A stretch of DNA of 64,000 nucleotides from Streptantibioticus cattleyicolor NRRL 8057 = DSM 46488 (lineage in GTDB: Bacteria; Actinomycetota; Actinomycetes; Streptomycetales; Streptomycetaceae): contig NC_017586.1 in assembly GCF_000240165.1 (NCBI RefSeq), positions 4,216,001-4,280,000 on the forward strand. The letters are read 5' to 3'. Below, piece after piece: positions 31,332 through 43,413 of the stretch (positions are counted from its first letter, which is position 1; each line of letters begins with the position of its first letter). The notes beneath the pieces are model-generated. The model was given only the letters and a program-made list of their open reading frames with translations. It had not been told where the DNA came from and searched no databases. The position numbers were made by a program, and so were the translations under genes.

Positions 31332-32963
31332 ATGCGGCAACCCAGGCGGCGGGGCGTCGGGCCGGCGGTGTGCGTCCTCGGGGCGGTCGCGCTGGCCACC
31401 GGCTGCGGGGGCGGCGGTGACGACGGCGGCGGCCCGGGCGGCATCGTCCGCGCCTCCTGGGGGGACCCCCAGCACCCGCTGGAGCCGGCCAACACCAACG
31501 AGGTGCAGGGCGGCAAGGTCCTCGACATGCTCTTCCGGGGCCTGAAGAAGTACGACCCGAAGACCGGCGCCGCGCGCGACTGGGTCGCCGACTCCGTCAC
31601 CAGCGCCGACCAGCAGACCTTCACCGTCAAGCTCAAACGCGGCTGGACGTTCTCCAACGGCGAGCCGGTCACCGCGCACTCCTTCACCGACGCCTGGAAC
31701 TACGCCGCGCTGGTCACCAACAAGCAGCTCAACGCCCCGTTCTTCGCCTACATCGACGGCTACGACAAGGTGCACCCGGCCTCCGGCGTCCCCACCGCCC
31801 GGACCATGTCGGGGCTGACCGTCAAGGACGACACCACGTTCACCGTCCGGCTCAGCCAGAAGTTCTCCACCTGGCCGGACATCCTGGGGTACGCGGCGTT
31901 CTACCCGCTGCCCACCCTGTTCTTCCGCGACCACGACGCCTGGCTGCGCAAACCCGTCGGCGACGGGCCCTACACCGTCAACTCCTACACCCGCGGCTCG
32001 GTGATGAAGCTGCGCCGCTGGGACGGGTACCCCGGGCCCGACAAGGCCCGCAACGGCGGGGTCGACCTGCGGGTCTACACCGACAACAACACCGCCTACA
32101 CCGACCTCCAGGCCGGCAACGTCGACCTGGTCGACGACATCCCGGTCACCCAGCTGAAGAACGTCAAGCGCGACCTGGGCTCCCGTTACCTCAACCAGCC
32201 GGCCGGCGTCATCCAGACCATCGCCTTCCCGATGTACGACCCGAGGTGGGGCGGCGCCACCATGGACAAGGTCCGCCGCGGCATCTCCATGGCGATCGAC
32301 CGCGCCTCCATCGCCGAGCACATCTTCCACGGCACCCGCACCCCGGCCACCGACTGGACCTCCCCGGTCCTGGGCGCCAAGGGCGGCTACACCAAGGGCC
32401 TCTGCGGCGACGCGTGCACCTACGACCCGGCCCGGGCGAGGCAACTGGTGCGCGAGGGCGGCGGGTTGCCCGGCGGGCAGGTACGCATCAGCTACAACGC
32501 CGACACCGGATCCCACAAGGAATGGGTGGACGCGATCTGCAACAGCGTCAACAACGCGCTCGGCAACGACCACGCCTGCGTGGGCAGCCCGGTCGGCACC
32601 TTCGCCGACTTCCGCAACCGGATCAGCGGCAAGTCGATGACCCAGCCGTTCCGGGCCGGCTGGCAGATGGACTACCCGCTCATCCAGGACTTCCTCCAGC
32701 CGCTGTACTACACCGGCGGCTCCTCCAACGACACCCACTTCTCCAACGCCGACTTCGACAAGGACGTCGACCGGGCCAACGCCGAGTCCGACCCGGCGGC
32801 GGCCGTCGCCCGCTTCCAGGACGCCGAACGCATCCTCGCCCGGCAGATGCCCGCGATCCCGCTGTGGTACCAGAACGGCAACGCCGGCTACACCTCCCGG
32901 CTGTCCAACGTGGCCCTCAACCAGTTCAGCGTGCCCGTCTACGACCAGCTCACCCTCGGCTGA
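31332..32963 (+). CDS. Peptide ABC transporter substrate-binding lipoprotein
   Basis: A 543-residue family-5 binding protein. The signal peptide ends in a lipobox (ALATGC), then a Gly/Asp linker. The domain shows SWGDPQHPLEPANTNE, FTVKLKRGWTFSNGEPVTAHSF, a central MDKVRRGISMAIDR, and a C-terminal AERILARQMPAIPLWY. It is first in a five-gene plus-strand operon (binding protein, two permeases, two ATPases), so it delivers oligopeptides to that complex. ATG 31332 has GAGGAGG upstream. The order differs from the facing bldK-like set, so it is a distinct importer. Confidence 0.92.
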   Translation: MRQPRRRGVGPAVCVLGAVALATGCGGGGDDGGGPGGIVRASWGDPQHPLEPANTNEVQGGKVLDMLFRGLKKYDPKTGAARDWVADSVTSADQQTFTVKLKRGWTFSNGEPVTAHSFTDAWNYAALVTNKQLNAPFFAYIDGYDKVHPASGVPTARTMSGLTVKDDTTFTVRLSQKFSTWPDILGYAAFYPLPTLFFRDHDAWLRKPVGDGPYTVNSYTRGSVMKLRRWDGYPGPDKARNGGVDLRVYTDNNTAYTDLQAGNVDLVDDIPVTQLKNVKRDLGSRYLNQPAGVIQTIAFPMYDPRWGGATMDKVRRGISMAIDRASIAEHIFHGTRTPATDWTSPVLGAKGGYTKGLCGDACTYDPARARQLVREGGGLPGGQVRISYNADTGSHKEWVDAICNSVNNALGNDHACVGSPVGTFADFRNRISGKSMTQPFRAGWQMDYPLIQDFLQPLYYTGGSSNDTHFSNADFDKDVDRANAESDPAAAVARFQDAERILARQMPAIPLWYQNGNAGYTSRLSNVALNQFSVPVYDQLTLG

Positions 32964-32993
32964 CCCCCGCCACCGCTACCCCGGAGCCCGCCC

Positions 32994-33909
32994 ATGGGAC
33001 GTTACGTGATCCGGCGTCTGCTCCAGATGATCCCGGTCTTCGTCGGCAGCACGCTGCTGATCTTCTTCATGGTCTACGCGCTCGGCGACCCGGTGGCCGC
33101 GCTCTTCGGCGACCGGGCGCCGGACCCGGCCACCGCCGCCCAGATCCGCAAGGACCTCTACCTCGACCACCCGCTGTGGCAGCAGTACCTGCACTACATG
33201 GGGCAGATCTTCCGGGGCGACTTCGGCACCGCCTTCACCGGCCAGCCGGTGCTGGAGCTGATGGCGTCGGCCTGGCCGCTGACCATCCGGCTGACGATCA
33301 TCGCGGTGGTCGCCGAGACCGCCGTCGGCGTCGTCCTCGGGGTGGCCGCCGGGATGCGCCGGGGCCGCCCGCTCGACACCGGGGTGCTGGTCTTCACCCT
33401 GGTGGTCGTCTCCGTCCCCACCTTCGTCAGCGGCTACGTGCTCCAGTACCTGTTCGGCGTCGACTGGGGCGTGGTCAACCCGTCGGTGTCGCTGGAGGCC
33501 CCGCTGGACGAGATGATCCTGCCCGGCGTCGTCCTCGCCCTGGTCTCGCTGGCCTACGTCACCCGGCTGACCCGTACCTCGCTGGCCGAGAACACCCGCG
33601 CCGACTACGTACGCACCGCCATCGCCAAGGGGCTGCCCCGGCGCCGGGTCATCTGGCGCCACCTGCTGCGCAACTCGCTGATCCCGGTGGTCACCTTCAT
33701 CGGCACCGACATCGGGGCGCTGATGGGCGGCGCCATCGTCACCGAGCGCATCTTCAACGTGCACGGCGTCGGCTACCAGCTCTACCAGGGCATCCTGCGG
33801 CAGAACTCACCCACTGTGGTCGGCTTCGTGACCATCCTGGTCATCGTCTTCCTGGTGGCCAACCTGCTGGTCGACCTGATCTACGCGGTGCTCGACCCGA
33901 GGATCCGCT

Positions 33910-33917
<8 letters not shown>
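32994..33917 (+). CDS. Peptide ABC transporter permease (DppB type)
   Basis: A 307-residue permease with six transmembrane helices. The N-terminal GRYVIRRLLQMIPVFVGSTLLIFF and the cytoplasmic EAA loop (YVRTAIAKGLPRRRVIWRH) are typical of DppB/OppB. It forms the pore with the next gene product, whose start overlaps its end by 8 nt. ATG 32994 lies 30 nt after the binding-protein stop. Length is normal for the family. Confidence 0.93.
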
Positions 33918-34914
<997 letters not shown>

Positions 34915-34925
34915 GGAGACGCCCG

Positions 34926-35909
34926 TTGAGCACCCTGCTGGACGTACGCGATCTGCACGTGGAGTTCCGCACCCGGGACGGCGTCGCCAAGGCCGTCAAC
35001 GGGGTGAGCTACACCGTCCACGCCGGCGAGACCCTGGCGGTGCTCGGCGAGTCGGGCTCCGGCAAGTCGGTGACCGCCCAGGCGATCATGGGCATCCTGG
35101 ACTCTCCGCCCGGCCGGGTCACCGGCGGCGAGATCCTCTTCCGCGGCACCGACCTGCTCACCATGGGCCGGCCGGAACGGCGCAGGGTACGCGGCGACCG
35201 GATGGCGATGATCTTCCAGGACGCGCTCTCCGCCCTCAACCCGGTGCTCACCGTCGGCCGGCAGCTCGCCGAGATGTTCACCGTCCACCGCGGCATGTCC
35301 CGCAAGGACGCCCTGGGCAAGGCGGTCGAGCTGATGGAACGGGTCCGCATCCCGGCCGCCCGGCAGCGGGCCGGGGACTACCCGCACCAGTTCTCCGGCG
35401 GCATGCGGCAACGCATCATGATCGCCATGGCGATGGCGCTCGGCCCCGAACTGATCATCGCCGACGAGCCGACCACCGCCCTCGACGTCACCGTCCAGGC
35501 CCAGGTGATGGAGCTGCTCGCCGAGCTCCAGCGCGAACTGCGGATGGGCCTGATCCTCATCACCCACGACCTCGGGGTGGTCGCCGACGTCGCCGACACC
35601 ATCGCGGTGATGTACGCGGGCCGGATCGTGGAGCACGCCCCGGTGCACGAGATCTACCGGCGCCCGGCCCACCCGTACACCAAGGGGCTGCTGGAGTCGA
35701 TCCCACGGCTGGACCGCAAGGGGCGCGAGCTGTACGCGATCAAGGGGCTGCCGCCCAGCCTGCTCGCGGTGCCGTCCGGCTGCGCCTTCCACCCGCGCTG
35801 CCCGCTGGCCCGCCCGGTGTGCGCCACCGACGAGCCGCCGCTGTACCAGGTGGGGCCGGGCCGGGGGAGCGCCTGCCACTTCTGGAAGGAGTGCCTGGGT
35901 GAGCGGTGA
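34926..35909 (+). CDS. Peptide ABC transporter ATPase (DppD type)
   Basis: A 327-residue ATPase: Walker [10 protein letters not shown] loop [12 protein letters not shown], signature FSGGMRQR, Walker [13 protein letters not shown], switch His ITHDLG, and the C-terminal oligopeptide-transporter extension [17 protein letters not shown] with its cysteine cluster. TTG 34926 is chosen with GAGGA 8 nt upstream; it is 11 nt after the permease stop. It powers import together with the next ATPase, whose GTG start overlaps its end by 11 nt. Confidence 0.93.
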
Positions 35910-36957
35910 GCCGATCCTGCGGGTGCGGGGCCTGGTCAAGCACTTCCCGCTGACCCGCGGCATCCTGTTCAAACGGCAGATCGGCGCGGTCAAGGCGGTG
36001 GACGGCGTCGACTTCGAACTGCGCCCGGGGGAGACCCTGGGCATCGTGGGCGAGTCCGGCTGCGGCAAGTCCACCGTGGCCCGGCTGGTGATGAACCTGG
36101 AGAAGCCCACGGCCGGGGAGGTCCGCTACCGGGGGCAGGACATCACCCGGCTGACCGGACGCGACCTGAAGGCGGTGCGCCGCGACATCCAGATGGTCTT
36201 CCAGGACCCGTACACCTCGCTCAACCCCCGCATGACCGTGGGCGACATCGTCGGCGAGCCCTTCGCCATCCACCCCGAGGCGGCGCCCCGGGGCGAGCGG
36301 CGCCGCCGGGTCCAGGAACTGCTGGAGGTCGTCGGACTGAGCCCCGAGTACGTCAACCGCTACCCGCACCAGTTCTCCGGCGGCCAGCGGCAGCGCATCG
36401 GCATCGCCCGCGGCCTCGCCCTCAACCCGCGCGTCATCATCTGCGACGAGCCGGTCTCCGCCCTCGACGTCTCCGTCCAGGCCCAGGTGGTCAACCTGAT
36501 GGAGCGGCTGCAACGGGAGTTCGGCCTGAGCTACGTCTTCATCGCGCACGACCTGTCGGTGGTGCGCCACATCTCCGACCGGGTGGCCGTGATGTACCTG
36601 GGGCGGATCGTGGAGACCGGGGACGAGGAGCAGATCTACGAGCACCCCACGCACCCGTACACCCAGGCGCTGCTCTCCGCGGTGCCGGTGCCCGATCCGG
36701 ACGCGCGCCAGGGGCGGGGCCGGATCATCCTCCACGGCGACGTGCCCTCACCGGCCGCGGTGCCCTCCGGCTGCCGCTTCCGCACCCGCTGCTGGAAGGC
36801 GCGGGAGAAGTGCGCCCGCGAGGTGCCCCCGCTCGCCGTCCCCGGGACCTTCCACGGCACCGGCTCCCCGGCCGAGCACCCCAGCGCCTGCCACTTCGCC
36901 GAGGAGGCACGGCCCGACCCCGAGCGCCCGCAACAGCCGAGCCGCCCGCGGCCGTGA
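35899..36957 (+). CDS. Peptide ABC transporter ATPase (DppF type)
   Basis: A 352-residue ATPase: [21 protein letters not shown] start typical of OppF/DppF, Walker [10 protein letters not shown], signature FSGGQRQR, Walker [19 protein letters not shown] switch, and the Cys-rich C-terminal [20 protein letters not shown] 35899 lies inside the end of the preceding ATPase gene. It is the last gene of the operon; a bidirectional hairpin overlaps its final codons. Confidence 0.93.
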
Positions 36958-36989: not shown

Positions 36990-38102
36990 TCACTCGGCGG
37001 CGGCGCCGCCCTCCTCCAGCGCGGCCAGCGCCGGGTCGAGGACGACGTCCTCGGTGCGCGCGGTGACCGACGGCTCCTCCGGGAAGTGGCAGGCCGTCAG
37101 GTGTCCCGCTTCGCTGCCGGAGATCTGCACCAGCGGCGGCGCCTCGGCGGCGCACTTGTCCTGCGCCTTCCAGCACCGGGTGCGGAACCGGCAGCCGGAC
37201 GGCGGGTTGATCGGCGACGGGACGTCACCGGCGAGCCGGATCCGCTCCCGCTCGTCGTCCGGGTCGGCCTCCGGCGCCGCCGACAGCAGCGCGTGGGTGT
37301 ACGGGTGCCGGGGGCGCTGATAGATCTCGTCCCGGGTGCCGATCTCCACGATCTTGCCCAGGTACATCACCGCCACCCGCTGCGAGAAGTGACGCACGAT
37401 CGCCAGGTCGTGGGCGATGAACAGGAACGCGATGCCCATCTCCCGCTGGAGTTCCTGGAGCAGGTTGACCACCTGCGCCTGGATGGAGACGTCCAGCGCC
37501 GAGACCGGCTCGTCGGCCACGATCAGCTTGGGCTCCAGGGCGAGCGCCCGGGCCACCCCGATGCGCTGCCGCTGGCCGCCGGAGAACTCGTGCGGGAAGC
37601 GGTTGTAGTGCTCGGGGTTGAGACCCACCGTCTCCAGCAGCTCGCGGACCTTCTTCTCCCGGCCGCCGGGCGGGTTGATCCCGTTGATCTCCATCGGCCC
37701 GGAGATGATGTTGCCGACCGTCTGCCGCGGGTTGAGCGAGGCGTACGGGTCCTGGAAGATCATCTGGATCTCGGAGCGGACCGGGGCCAGCTCCTTGCGG
37801 TTGGCGTGCGAGATGTCCTGGCCGCGGTAGGAGATCTTGCCGGCCGTCGGCTCGTACAGCCGGGTCACCAGCCGGCCGGTGGTCGACTTGCCGCAGCCGG
37901 ACTCGCCCACCAGACCCAGCGACTCGCCCGGGTGCACGGTGAAGTTGACGTCGTCCACCGCCTGCACCGCGCCCACCTGCCGCTTGAACAGGAAGCCGTC
38001 CATCACCGGGAAGTGCTTGGTGAGGCCGGAGACCTCCAGCAGCGGCTCGCCGGAACGCTGTTCGGGCACCGGCTTGTCCAGGGTCGTCTGGTTGTCGCTC
38101 AT
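36990..38102 (-). CDS. bldKE: Oligopeptide ABC transporter ATPase (BldKE-like)
   Basis: A 370-residue OppF-type ATPase: FLFKRQVGAVQAVDDV, Walker [11 protein letters not shown] loop MIFQDPYASLNP, signature FSGGQRQR, Walker [20 protein letters not shown] switch, and a C-terminal [17 protein letters not shown]...ACHF cysteine cluster. It is the fifth and last gene of the minus-strand importer. The gene order (permease, binding protein, permease, ATPase, ATPase) is that of the S. coelicolor bldK operon, the basis for the symbol. There the importer takes up an extracellular peptide needed for aerial mycelium. Confidence 0.85.
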   Translation of the reverse strand: MSDNQTTLDKPVPEQRSGEPLLEVSGLTKHFPVMDGFLFKRQVGAVQAVDDVNFTVHPGESLGLVGESGCGKSTTGRLVTRLYEPTAGKISYRGQDISHANRKELAPVRSEIQMIFQDPYASLNPRQTVGNIISGPMEINGINPPGGREKKVRELLETVGLNPEHYNRFPHEFSGGQRQRIGVARALALEPKLIVADEPVSALDVSIQAQVVNLLQELQREMGIAFLFIAHDLAIVRHFSQRVAVMYLGKIVEIGTRDEIYQRPRHPYTHALLSAAPEADPDDERERIRLAGDVPSPINPPSGCRFRTRCWKAQDKCAAEAPPLVQISGSEAGHLTACHFPEEPSVTARTEDVVLDPALAALEEGGAAAE

Positions 38103-38122: not shown

Positions 38123-39202
<1,080 letters not shown>

Positions 39203-39269: not shown

Positions 39270-40247
39270 TCATGCGAGCCGGATCCGCGGGTCGATGAAG
39301 GCGTAGCTGGCGTCGATGATCACGTTGAAGATCACGATGGAGGTGGCCGAGAAGAGCATCACGCCCATCTCCAGCGGCAGGTCGGTGCCGAGCACCGCCT
39401 GCACCGCCAGCTGGCCGATGCCGTGCAGACCGAAGGTGGACTCGGTGATGATCGCGCCACCGAAGACCGAACCGAGGTCGATGCCGAAGATGGTGATGAT
39501 CGGGCCCATGGCGCCGCGCAGCGCGTACCGGAAGAAGACGTATCGAGAGCCCATGCCCTTCGCCCGCGCGGTGCGGACGTGCTCCTCCTGGAGCTGCTCG
39601 ACCATCAGCGACCGGGTCTGCCGGCTGTAGTTCGACCAGAAGATGACCGACATCACCAGCGCCGGAAGCAGCATGCCGGTGATCGAACCGACCGGGTCGC
39701 CCGACCAGTTGACGTCCTGGCCGTGCGGCAGCCAGCCGAGGGTGTCGGCGAAGAGGTAGATGGCGATCGGGCCGATGAAGTAGATCTGCACCGACTGGCC
39801 GGTCAGCGAGATCGCGCTGGCCACCTTGTCGAAGACGCCGCCCTGCTTGGCGGCGGAGATCAGGCCCAGGCCGACACCGATGATCAGGAAGATCGCGGCA
39901 CCCATGACGGCCAGCGTCAGGGTGTCGGGGTAGCGGTCCTTGATGATGTCCCACACCGGCTGCTGGCTGGCGAAGGAGAAGCCCAGGCAGGGCGCCGAGC
40001 AGTGACCGGAGGTCATGTCACGGCCGGCGAAGATGCCCACCATGTAGTGCCAGTACTGCTCCCAGATCGGCTGATCCAGGCCCATGTTGTGGCGGATCAG
40101 CGACAACTGGGTCGGGGTGCAGACCTTGCCGCACGACAGGCGTGCCGGGTCGGAGGGCAGGGCGAAGAAGAGGAAGTAGGTGACGGCACTGATCAGGATC
40201 AGGATGACGATGGCGCCGAGCACCCGGCGAACAAGGAAACGGAGCAT
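39270..40247 (-). CDS. bldKC: Oligopeptide ABC transporter permease (BldKC-like)
   Basis: A 325-residue OppB-type permease with six helices: LRFLVRRVLGAIVILILISAV at the N-terminus, a periplasmic loop with paired cysteines (LSCGKVCTPTQLSLI and GHCSAPCLG), and the EAA loop HVRTARAKGMGSRYVFFRY. ATG 40247 is preferred since the helix-1 core follows directly; a start at 40289 adds 14 polar residues. The extra extracellular cysteines could form disulfides. A strong stem-loop separates it from the binding-protein gene upstream. Confidence 0.87.
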   Translation of the reverse strand: MLRFLVRRVLGAIVILILISAVTYFLFFALPSDPARLSCGKVCTPTQLSLIRHNMGLDQPIWEQYWHYMVGIFAGRDMTSGHCSAPCLGFSFASQQPVWDIIKDRYPDTLTLAVMGAAIFLIIGVGLGLISAAKQGGVFDKVASAISLTGQSVQIYFIGPIAIYLFADTLGWLPHGQDVNWSGDPVGSITGMLLPALVMSVIFWSNYSRQTRSLMVEQLQEEHVRTARAKGMGSRYVFFRYALRGAMGPIITIFGIDLGSVFGGAIITESTFGLHGIGQLAVQAVLGTDLPLEMGVMLFSATSIVIFNVIIDASYAFIDPRIRLA

Positions 40248-40323
40248 GGACGGGCTCTTCCGTGGATGCGCCGTCGGCGTCGGCGGCACTGGTAGGGGGA
40301 GCGGTCGGGCGGCCGGTCCGCGG

Positions 40324-40381: not shown

Positions 40382-42152
40382 TTACTTCACGAAGATGGTG
40401 TTGGCGTTGATGACGCCGATCTCCTGGTTGAAGGTGACACCACCCAGACCCGAGCCGTACAGCTGGAAGAACTTGTCGTAGGCGAAGGGCACCGCCGGAA
40501 CGTCGTTCTGCATGATGGTGTCGGACAGCTTCTGCCACTCGGCCTGCTGCGACTTCAGGTCCGGGATCGCGTTGATGCGGTCGATCTCCGAGTTGACCTT
40601 CGGGTCGTTGAGGAACGAGTAGTTCTCCTGGCCGTCACCGATGAGCCGACCGTCCATGATCGGCTGGATGGCGGTGGAGCCGTTGGGCCAGTCGGCCGCC
40701 CAGCCGGTGCGGTACATGTCGTACTCGTTGTTGACCTTGCCGATCAGGGTGTACGCGGCGGTGGCGTCGATCGGCTGGAGCTGGAGGTCGATGCCGGCCT
40801 TGGAGAAGGCGTTCTTCAGCGTGTTGGCGAAGTTCGACCACTTCGGGGTGTTGGCGTAGGCGATGGTGAGCTTGAGCGGGGTGGTGACCCCGGCCTCCTT
40901 CAGCAGCTCCTTGGCCTTCTCCGGGTCACCGGCCGGCTTCTTCAGCTTGTCGAACGGGTCGAAGTCGCGGGAGCCGGTGATGGTCGGGGACATCAGGCTG
41001 GTCGCCATGTCGCCCTGGGCCGACCCACCGGTGGCCTGCTGGGCGGCGGCCATCGGGAAGGCGTACATGATCGCCTTGCGGACCCGGACGTCCTTCACAC
41101 GCTTGGTGTTGATGTTCAGCATGTCGACGAACGGCTGGTACTGGTTGATGATCCGCGACTTGTACTTGGAGTCGCCCAGGATCGTCGTCATCTGGCTCGG
41201 GTCGGCCGACTGCGACAGCGAGGTCGCGTACTTGTCGTTGCCGGACCCGGCCATCAGGCGCTGGGTCAGGCCCGGGTTGGGGATGTTGACCGAGATCGAC
41301 CACTTGTCCGGATACTGCTGCCGGATCGGGTCGGTCTTCGGGTCCCAGTTGGTGTTGCGGACCAGCGTCAGCGACTTGCCCGGCTTGTAGTCCTCGATCT
41401 TGTACGGACCGGTGGAGACCGGGTGCAGGTCGTACTTCTGCTGGGTGTCCTTGGCCTTCGGGATCGGTGAGACGTCCGGCATCGCCATCGCGTAGGGCGC
41501 GTCGGCGTGCGGGTCCTTGAAGTGGAAGACGATGGTCTTGCTGTCCGGCGTCGCGACCAGCGAGTCCGGCAGGTCCTTGCCGTCGAACGGGCCCGAGTAG
41601 GTCTTCTGGTACGAGGTGCCCGACATCCAGATCTGGACGTAGGAGGCGCCCTCGGTCTCCCAGGGGGCGTAGGTGCGCTCGATGCCGTACTTGATGTCCT
41701 GCGCGGTGACGGGGGAGCCGTCCTCGTACTTCAGGCCGTCCTTGAGGTGGTACGTCCAGGTCTTGCCGCCGTCGGACATCTGGCCGGTGTCGGTGGCCAG
41801 GTCGCCGACGAGCTTCATGTCGCCGGTCTTGGGGTCGATCTTGTAGCCGGTCAGCGTGCGGGCGTAGAGGGTGGATATCGCCTGCTGGTTGCTGACGTAC
41901 AGGTGACCCGGGTCCAGGTGGTTGAAGTCGGTCTGCTCCAGGTCGTAGACCGTGCCGCCCTTCTTGGCGCCGGGGACGTCGGCGGCCGGGCCCTGGGAGT
42001 CGGCCGCGGTGCCCAGCGTGACCTTCTGCACCTTCGGCTTGGCGGTGTCGGCCAGCTGGCCGCCACCGCCCCCGCCCGCCGCCGCTGCACGCGCTGAGGG
42101 ACAGCGCACCCACCGCCACGACGGCGGCGTAATGAGCCTTACGCATTCTCAT
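40382..42152 (-). CDS. bldKB: Oligopeptide-binding lipoprotein (BldKB-like), frame broken after lipobox
   Basis: The signal peptide MRMRKAHYAAVVAVGALSL with lipobox LSAC is read from 42152 in one frame. The mature family-5 binding domain (QLADTAKPKVQKVTLG onward, WTYHLKDGLKYEDGSPVT, KAIMYAFPMAAAQ, to the stop at 40382) is in another frame, about 575 residues. The switch lies in the G-rich run at 42060-42083, just after the Cys, where one base too many is present. Removing one G gives an unbroken lipoprotein, C-S-(G)n-QLAD. Without correction only a start near 42109 is available for the domain, giving no signal peptide. It is therefore a sequencing error, a phase-variable tract or a real mutation. 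Gene order and family identify it as the BldKB-like component. Confidence 0.8.
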
Positions 42153-42231
42153 GGATTCCTGCCTGTCACTGATCTACGACTTGCCTTGGGAAGTCGGCCT
42201 GCCCGGGACCCGGTGCCGGCCACTTGGACAC

Positions 42232-43254
42232 TCAGCGGATGGTCTTGGGATCGAGAGCGTCCCGGACCGAGTCCCCGAGCAGGTTGAAGGCGATGACAAA
42301 CAGGGCCATCGCGATGCCGGGGAAGAACATGAAGGTGATGTCGGACTGGTAGAAGTTGGCGGCCTTCTGGAACATCAGGCCCCAGTCCGGCGTCGGGTCC
42401 TGCATGCCGACGCCGAGGTACGACAGACCCGCCTCGGCGGTGACGTTGACCGGCAGCAGCAGGGTGGCCTGCACCAGGATGGTGCTCCACACGTTGGGCA
42501 GCACCTCCTTGCGGATGATCCGCCAGGTCGAGGCGCCGCTCAACTTGGCGGCCTCGATGTACTCGCGTTCCCGCAGGGAGAGCACCTGGGCGCGGACCAG
42601 ACGGCCCATGGACATCCAGCCCAGCGCGAACTGCACCAGCACCAGCGCGGTGAACCGGATGAAGGTCGACTCCTGGGCGCCGGGACGCACGAAGATCGCC
42701 GCGATGACCGGCGCGAAGGCGATGAAGAACAGCTGCTGCGGGAAGGACATCATCAGGTCGGAGAAGCGGCCGGCGAAGTAGTCGGTCCGGCCGCCCATGT
42801 ACCCCTGGATCAGACCGACGAGCACACCCGCGACCACCGACAGGATGGTTACGCACAGCGCGACCCCCAGCGAGGTGCGGATGCCGTAGACCAGCAGCGC
42901 GAAGATGTCGCGGCCCAGCTGGGGCTCGATGCCGAACCAGTGGCTGCCGTCGATGCCGCCGTTGGGCTTGATCGGGTAGCCGTAGGAGTTCAGCAGGCCG
43001 TCGTCCTGCCCGTAGAACTTGTACGGGCTCTTGCCGGTGAGCCCGGTGATCACCGGGGCGAAGATCGCGACCAGGAGGAAGACGCCCACGATGCAGGCGC
43101 AGATGATGCCGGTCTTGTCGCGCTTGAAGCGCGCCCAGGCCAGCTGCCGGGGTGAGCGGCCGACGAGCTCTGGGGCGGCCGGGGAGCCGGCGTTCGCCGG
43201 GGCCTCCTCAGGGGCCGGCTCGGGCTCGGTAGCTGCCTGAGTAGGACTGGTCAT
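42232..43254 (-). CDS. bldKA: Oligopeptide ABC transporter permease (BldKA-like)
   Basis: A 340-residue OppC-type permease, first gene of the operon. A ~40-residue Pro/Glu-rich cytoplasmic tail precedes LAWARFKRDKTGIICACIVGVFLLVA. A periplasmic block with HWFGIEPQLGRDIFALLVYGIRTSLG and an EAA loop (EYIEAAKLSGASTWRIIRKE) follow. ATG 43254 is taken because MTSPTQAATEP is a typical N-terminus and GGA lies upstream; an earlier start at 43272 is possible. The 480-bp upstream gap should hold the operon promoter. The binding-protein gene begins 79 nt downstream. Confidence 0.87.
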   Translation of the reverse strand: MTSPTQAATEPEPAPEEAPANAGSPAAPELVGRSPRQLAWARFKRDKTGIICACIVGVFLLVAIFAPVITGLTGKSPYKFYGQDDGLLNSYGYPIKPNGGIDGSHWFGIEPQLGRDIFALLVYGIRTSLGVALCVTILSVVAGVLVGLIQGYMGGRTDYFAGRFSDLMMSFPQQLFFIAFAPVIAAIFVRPGAQESTFIRFTALVLVQFALGWMSMGRLVRAQVLSLREREYIEAAKLSGASTWRIIRKEVLPNVWSTILVQATLLLPVNVTAEAGLSYLGVGMQDPTPDWGLMFQKAANFYQSDITFMFFPGIAMALFVIAFNLLGDSVRDALDPKTIR

Positions 43255-43413
43255 TACGTTTCCATCCCGCACCGTGGGTCAGACGCGGCGAATGCCGCGG
43301 GTTGAGCGGACTTTCGCAATGTATTCAGCGTTTAGTCAAGAGGTTGCGGCCTGAAGAAGGGCCGATCAGCCGCATCTTGAGCGAAGGTTTGGCGGATTGC
43401 TGCACATACGTGC

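Follow-up and report, generated by a model that had tools for sequence, protein, structure and literature searches.

A one-base frame break in a bldKB-type lipoprotein gene of Streptantibioticus cattleyicolor, most likely an assembly indel

The 64,000-nucleotide stretch of the Streptantibioticus cattleyicolor genome analysed here (the window) carries a peptide-binding lipoprotein gene whose signal peptide and mature domain are assembled in separate reading frames. The break is correctly read, and sequence comparisons suggest that the gene is an ordinary bldKB-type gene, the split being most likely an assembly indel and otherwise an ordinary recent mutation.

On the minus strand, the ATG at 42152 opens MRMRKAHYAAVVAVGALSLSAC, a classical lipoprotein signal with the lipobox LSAC, which is followed by SGGGRGRWRPAG... 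Past AGC GGCGGCGGGCGGGGGCGGTGGCGG CCAG, the signal-peptide frame runs into a GC-rich nonsense stretch. The frame of the mature domain (QLADTAKPKVQ...NTIFVK, then stop), one off from that of the signal, is open from the GTG at 42109 to its end at 40382 and reads AAAAGGGGGGQLAD over the same bases. The switch falls within AGC GGCGGCGGGCGGGGGCGGTGGCGG CCAG (42086-42056), in a run of GGC/GGG glycine codons (42083-42060), and the genome assembly and the window have the same letters. Translation bore out the preliminary description, which had placed an LSAC lipoprotein signal at 42152, the mature domain (to 40382) one frame away and the shift in the glycine-codon run at 42060-42083. The split gene comprises the following features:

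42157-42168, minus strand: conserved leader TGACAGGCAGGA with ribosome-binding site, identical in 8 of 8 aligned sequences
42087-42152, minus strand: signal peptide MRMRKAHYAAVVAVGALSLSAC with LSAC, lipid Cys codon at 42089-42087; read directly, with an in-frame counterpart in the closest relatives
42060-42083, minus strand: glycine-codon run GGCGGCGGGCGGGGGCGGTGGCGG, site of the frame change, net +1 (or -2); GGG at 42077-42075, longest homopolymer G5 at 42073-42069
40382-42109, minus strand: mature peptide-binding domain, open frame; the earliest start codon available to this frame is GTG 42109, an unlikely start
40655-41815, minus strand: SBP_bac_5 domain (PF00496, E 4.5e-64), residues 90-476 of translated 42082-40385

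Taking out one base at ~42078-42074, for example one G of GGG 42077-42075, yields one continuous lipoprotein of 589 aa whose linker is all glycine, with eight glycines. The earlier proposal that deleting a single G restores the lipoprotein therefore holds at this triplet; at the G5 run (42073-42069) the frame is likewise restored, but an Arg enters the linker. Adding two bases also restores the frame and gives a linker of 75 nt, the length found in the two closest relatives. As judged from the letters, the break is a net +1 or -2, and the two are indistinguishable. Conservation of the leader TGACAGGCAGGA with its ribosome-binding site favours ATG 42152 as the true start.

The product of the split gene belongs to the SBP_bac_5 family by Pfam, and the best PDB match of its domain is 2wok, the clavulanic acid oligopeptide-binding protein (E 2.6e-69). 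The four other genes of the operon are full length and undamaged:

42232-43272, minus strand: OppC-type permease in the BldKA position (PF00528 and PF12911; syntenic)
39270-40289, minus strand: OppB-type permease in the BldKC position (PF19300 and PF00528; syntenic)
38123-39202, minus strand: oligopeptide ABC ATPase in the BldKD position (PF00005 and PF08352, oligo_HPY; syntenic)
36990-38102, minus strand: oligopeptide ABC ATPase in the BldKE position (PF00005 and PF08352, oligo_HPY; syntenic)

This permease-SBP-permease-ATPase-ATPase order is conserved in all ten relatives compared and in the relative G012, and in most of these an S9 peptidase gene, mshB and a second Opp operon lie near the locus. 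BldKA-E of S. coelicolor (SCO5112-SCO5116, with BldKB being SCO5113) measure 343, 600, 325, 353 and 381 aa (PMC10090380), and the operon here encodes proteins of 346, 589, 339, 359 and 370 aa in the same order, where 589 is the frame-restored lipoprotein. Since order and sizes match, the split gene is probably the lipoprotein gene of a bldK locus, in agreement with the BldKB-like identity first suggested for it, and a role in peptide import in this organism is predicted from family and locus. The likeness to S. coelicolor BldK lies in gene order, similar protein sizes and an SBP_bac_5 lipoprotein, and the locus is conserved in relatives, mostly near mshB and the S9 peptidase gene. By contrast with S. 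coelicolor BldKB, the assembled gene here has its signal and domain in separate frames, and the residue that appears to match the critical Lys425, in a stretch derived from the primers in PMC11303876, is Glu here and in the homologous locus L012, and Ala in L013. With Glu at this position, a function equal to that of BldKB should therefore not be assumed.

Beside the bldK-type operon lies a convergent second Opp-type operon (31332-36957, plus strand) with an SBP gene at 31332-32963, two permease genes and two ATPase genes; several relatives have two copies of it. A paralogous operon of the order SBP-permease-permease-ATPase-ATPase is located outside the window, ~48 kb off, at C2:4306525-4310916, and encodes an SBP of 36-37% identity. 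This operon is a possible back-up transporter.

Homologous loci (n = 83) were checked for the relation between signal and domain, a few rows being one gene present in two collections. A signal peptide was detectable in 73, and in all 73 it shares one frame with the domain; the window's own locus alone is out of frame. In L015 and L024 the filter scores no signal, although both are in frame by eye, and L043 is also in frame. In Streptantibioticus ferralitis and two other genomes, which are the closest relatives at 72-73% identity, the corresponding signal peptide is in frame, with linkers such as SSGGGGGAGGGTADVAKP. The spacing between the lipid Cys and the GTAADS-type motif is 66 to 99 nt and a multiple of three in 29 of the 29 measurable rows; here it is 73. 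These alignments indicate that the linker is free in length and constrained in frame: because the linkers of relatives differ by whole codons and 73 of 73 are in frame, the break stands as a singleton. A broken lipoprotein gene would have been called into question if the homologues lacked a lipobox and began in frame at some other start; these loci were checked for that pattern, and it does not hold. The remainder of the split gene is open for 565 codons past the break and aligns over its full length at 72%, with no further decay past the single lesion in either the gene or the operon. A search for another strain of the species gave none, the genus being represented by one genome.

A 664-kb region around the window was then compared with G012 by frameshift-aware alignment. 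A first survey returned dozens of candidates, and sites were then filtered by their codon-position substitutions and by stops; by alignment, most first-survey candidates were conserved non-coding leaders or antisense frames. Two passing sites were left uncounted: 4280603 falls upstream of where an enoyl-CoA hydratase-like gene begins, and 3773242, in this genome, is just ahead of a start codon. Intragenic breaks in this genome numbered 2 in 355 conserved genes (133,343 aligned residues), and the reverse comparison gave none in 301 genes of G012. The second break, at C2:4145572, lies in the run CCCCCGACTCCCCCACCCCCGCCCCGCC of an amino-acid deaminase-like gene, outside the window and ~70.4 kb before its first base. 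Relative G081, which has very long contigs, gave four passing sites in 75 genes; sites on its contig C2, for example 5227529, 5260249, 5283777 and 5142830, form a pattern as in an error-rich long-read assembly. With four sites in 75 genes of G081, the survey evidently picks up breaks of this kind, and the assembly of the window is clean by comparison.

Each of the two breaks has a G or C run of at least five no more than 8 nt away; such settings make up 5.2% of the sequence, and the chance that 2 of 2 breaks would fall in them is ~0.003. Slippage, in the cell or in sequencing, is their likely cause. Scaled up from two events per ~400 kb of coding sequence, the whole genome would have a few dozen, an approximate figure given n = 2. 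Elsewhere in the genome, the 23S rRNA at C2:3615416-3618536 is shorter by 2 nt than the other five copies (six in total; a weak indel comparison), and this shorter copy may be natural.

We consider it probable that the break is a one-base consensus error, made in base calling or assembly. The bldKB-type gene would then be intact in the living organism, the indel having been introduced into the consensus at the G-rich glycine-codon run, and the extra base would presumably be absent from the chromosome. The cell would make a normal lipoprotein of ~589 aa, which would deliver peptides to its neighbouring genes' product, the bldK-type ABC transporter. An error is favoured because all 73 homologues are in frame with linker steps of three only, because the 565 later codons and the four operon genes are undamaged, and because the 2 broken genes in 355 both have their breaks beside G/C runs. 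Also counted in its favour is that the assembly consists of two large contigs, as from long reads, and the event has the features of an assembly indel: a single base at a G/C-rich run, a singleton, and a gene otherwise intact. PacBio-only Streptomyces assemblies show 70-335 differences from their short-read-corrected versions, mostly homopolymer single bases (PMC6923854); the case here shares with them a single-base G/C-run difference that breaks an otherwise intact gene, although such breaks are few in this assembly. For homology-confirmed singleton frameshifts, sequencing errors are expected over true indels (GeneTack, PMC3711429), and our break, present in one genome with homology on both sides, resembles that category, in which error and recent mutation are inseparable in one case.

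Two points count against an assembly error. Slippage in vivo prefers the same contexts as slips in sequencing, and errors appear to be rare here, given 2 broken genes in 355 and an assembly completeness of 100%, against four in 75 for G081. A true recent one-base frameshift, by which the sequenced strain lost the exported BldKB-like lipoprotein, thus keeps considerable weight for a reading that we regard as unlikely, because the assembly breaks few genes and cellular slippage prefers the same places. The otherwise good quality of the assembly and the occurrence of GC-rich-run slippage in cells are consistent with it, and the related operon ~48 kb away (SBP 36% identical) could make the loss tolerable. 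A mutant strain of this kind may form aerial hyphae late or stay bald, unless its paralogous transporter at C2:4306k substitutes. Set against a mutation, S. coelicolor becomes bald when bldKB is lost (PMC11303876), and such a loss would normally be selected against. The additional decay expected of a pseudogene is also lacking: with one lesion only and no second in gene or operon, the loss would need to be very recent.

The preliminary description had offered an assembly error, a true mutation and a G tract whose variable length turns peptide sensing on and off; the error now appears most likely and the mutation possible, while the switch finds no support. Slippage in the glycine-codon tract would, in that proposal, make the BldK-type peptide receptor, and hence the decision to form aerial hyphae, alternate between on and off from colony to colony. 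The break does lie in a G-rich repeat near the start of a surface protein, and one G-tract switch is known in Streptomyces: pglX of S. coelicolor, with an eight-G run and a switching frequency of 10^-2 to 10^-4 (PMC4365076). The two share a G-rich coding tract whose length sets the frame, but in pglX the eight G are consecutive and switching has been measured, whereas the tract here is interrupted and reaches at most five G, a length that is commonplace (1488 G/C runs of five in the 664 kb, one per ~450 bp). Slippage-driven phase-variable genes are recognized by long homopolymers or tandem tracts, seven or more in PMC3711429; the longest homopolymer here is G5. Comparison of tract length in relatives, as had been suggested, gave G runs of 2-5 in orthologues with no conserved tract, a long G run in none, whole-codon variation of the linker and 0 of 73 homologues out of frame, which, as far as relatives can show, makes a switch very improbable. 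We give still less credence to the idea that translation copes with the break, by programmed +1 frameshifting or by a start in the domain's own frame such as GTG 42109. That frame is indeed open from GTG 42109, but a start there would give MRCPSARAAAAGG..., an extracellular binding protein without a signal peptide, and the conserved leader TGACAGGCAGGA precedes ATG 42152 instead. The homologues are single-frame and need no recoding, nor is the break, a singleton, conserved among them.

One base in a GC-rich run can thus make a developmental receptor look dead, and the glycine-rich linkers of lipoproteins should be checked wherever bld genes are scored as present or absent in such assemblies. 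A real mutation would make the strain a natural test case for whether aerial growth beyond S. coelicolor requires BldK-type import.

In 42000-43400 no promoter-like or terminator-like sites were found. The leader TGACAGGCAGGA and some of the gap that follows the permease gene keep every letter down to ~60% protein identity, a conservation (42157-42168 and upstream, minus strand) that exceeds the needs of a ribosome-binding site.
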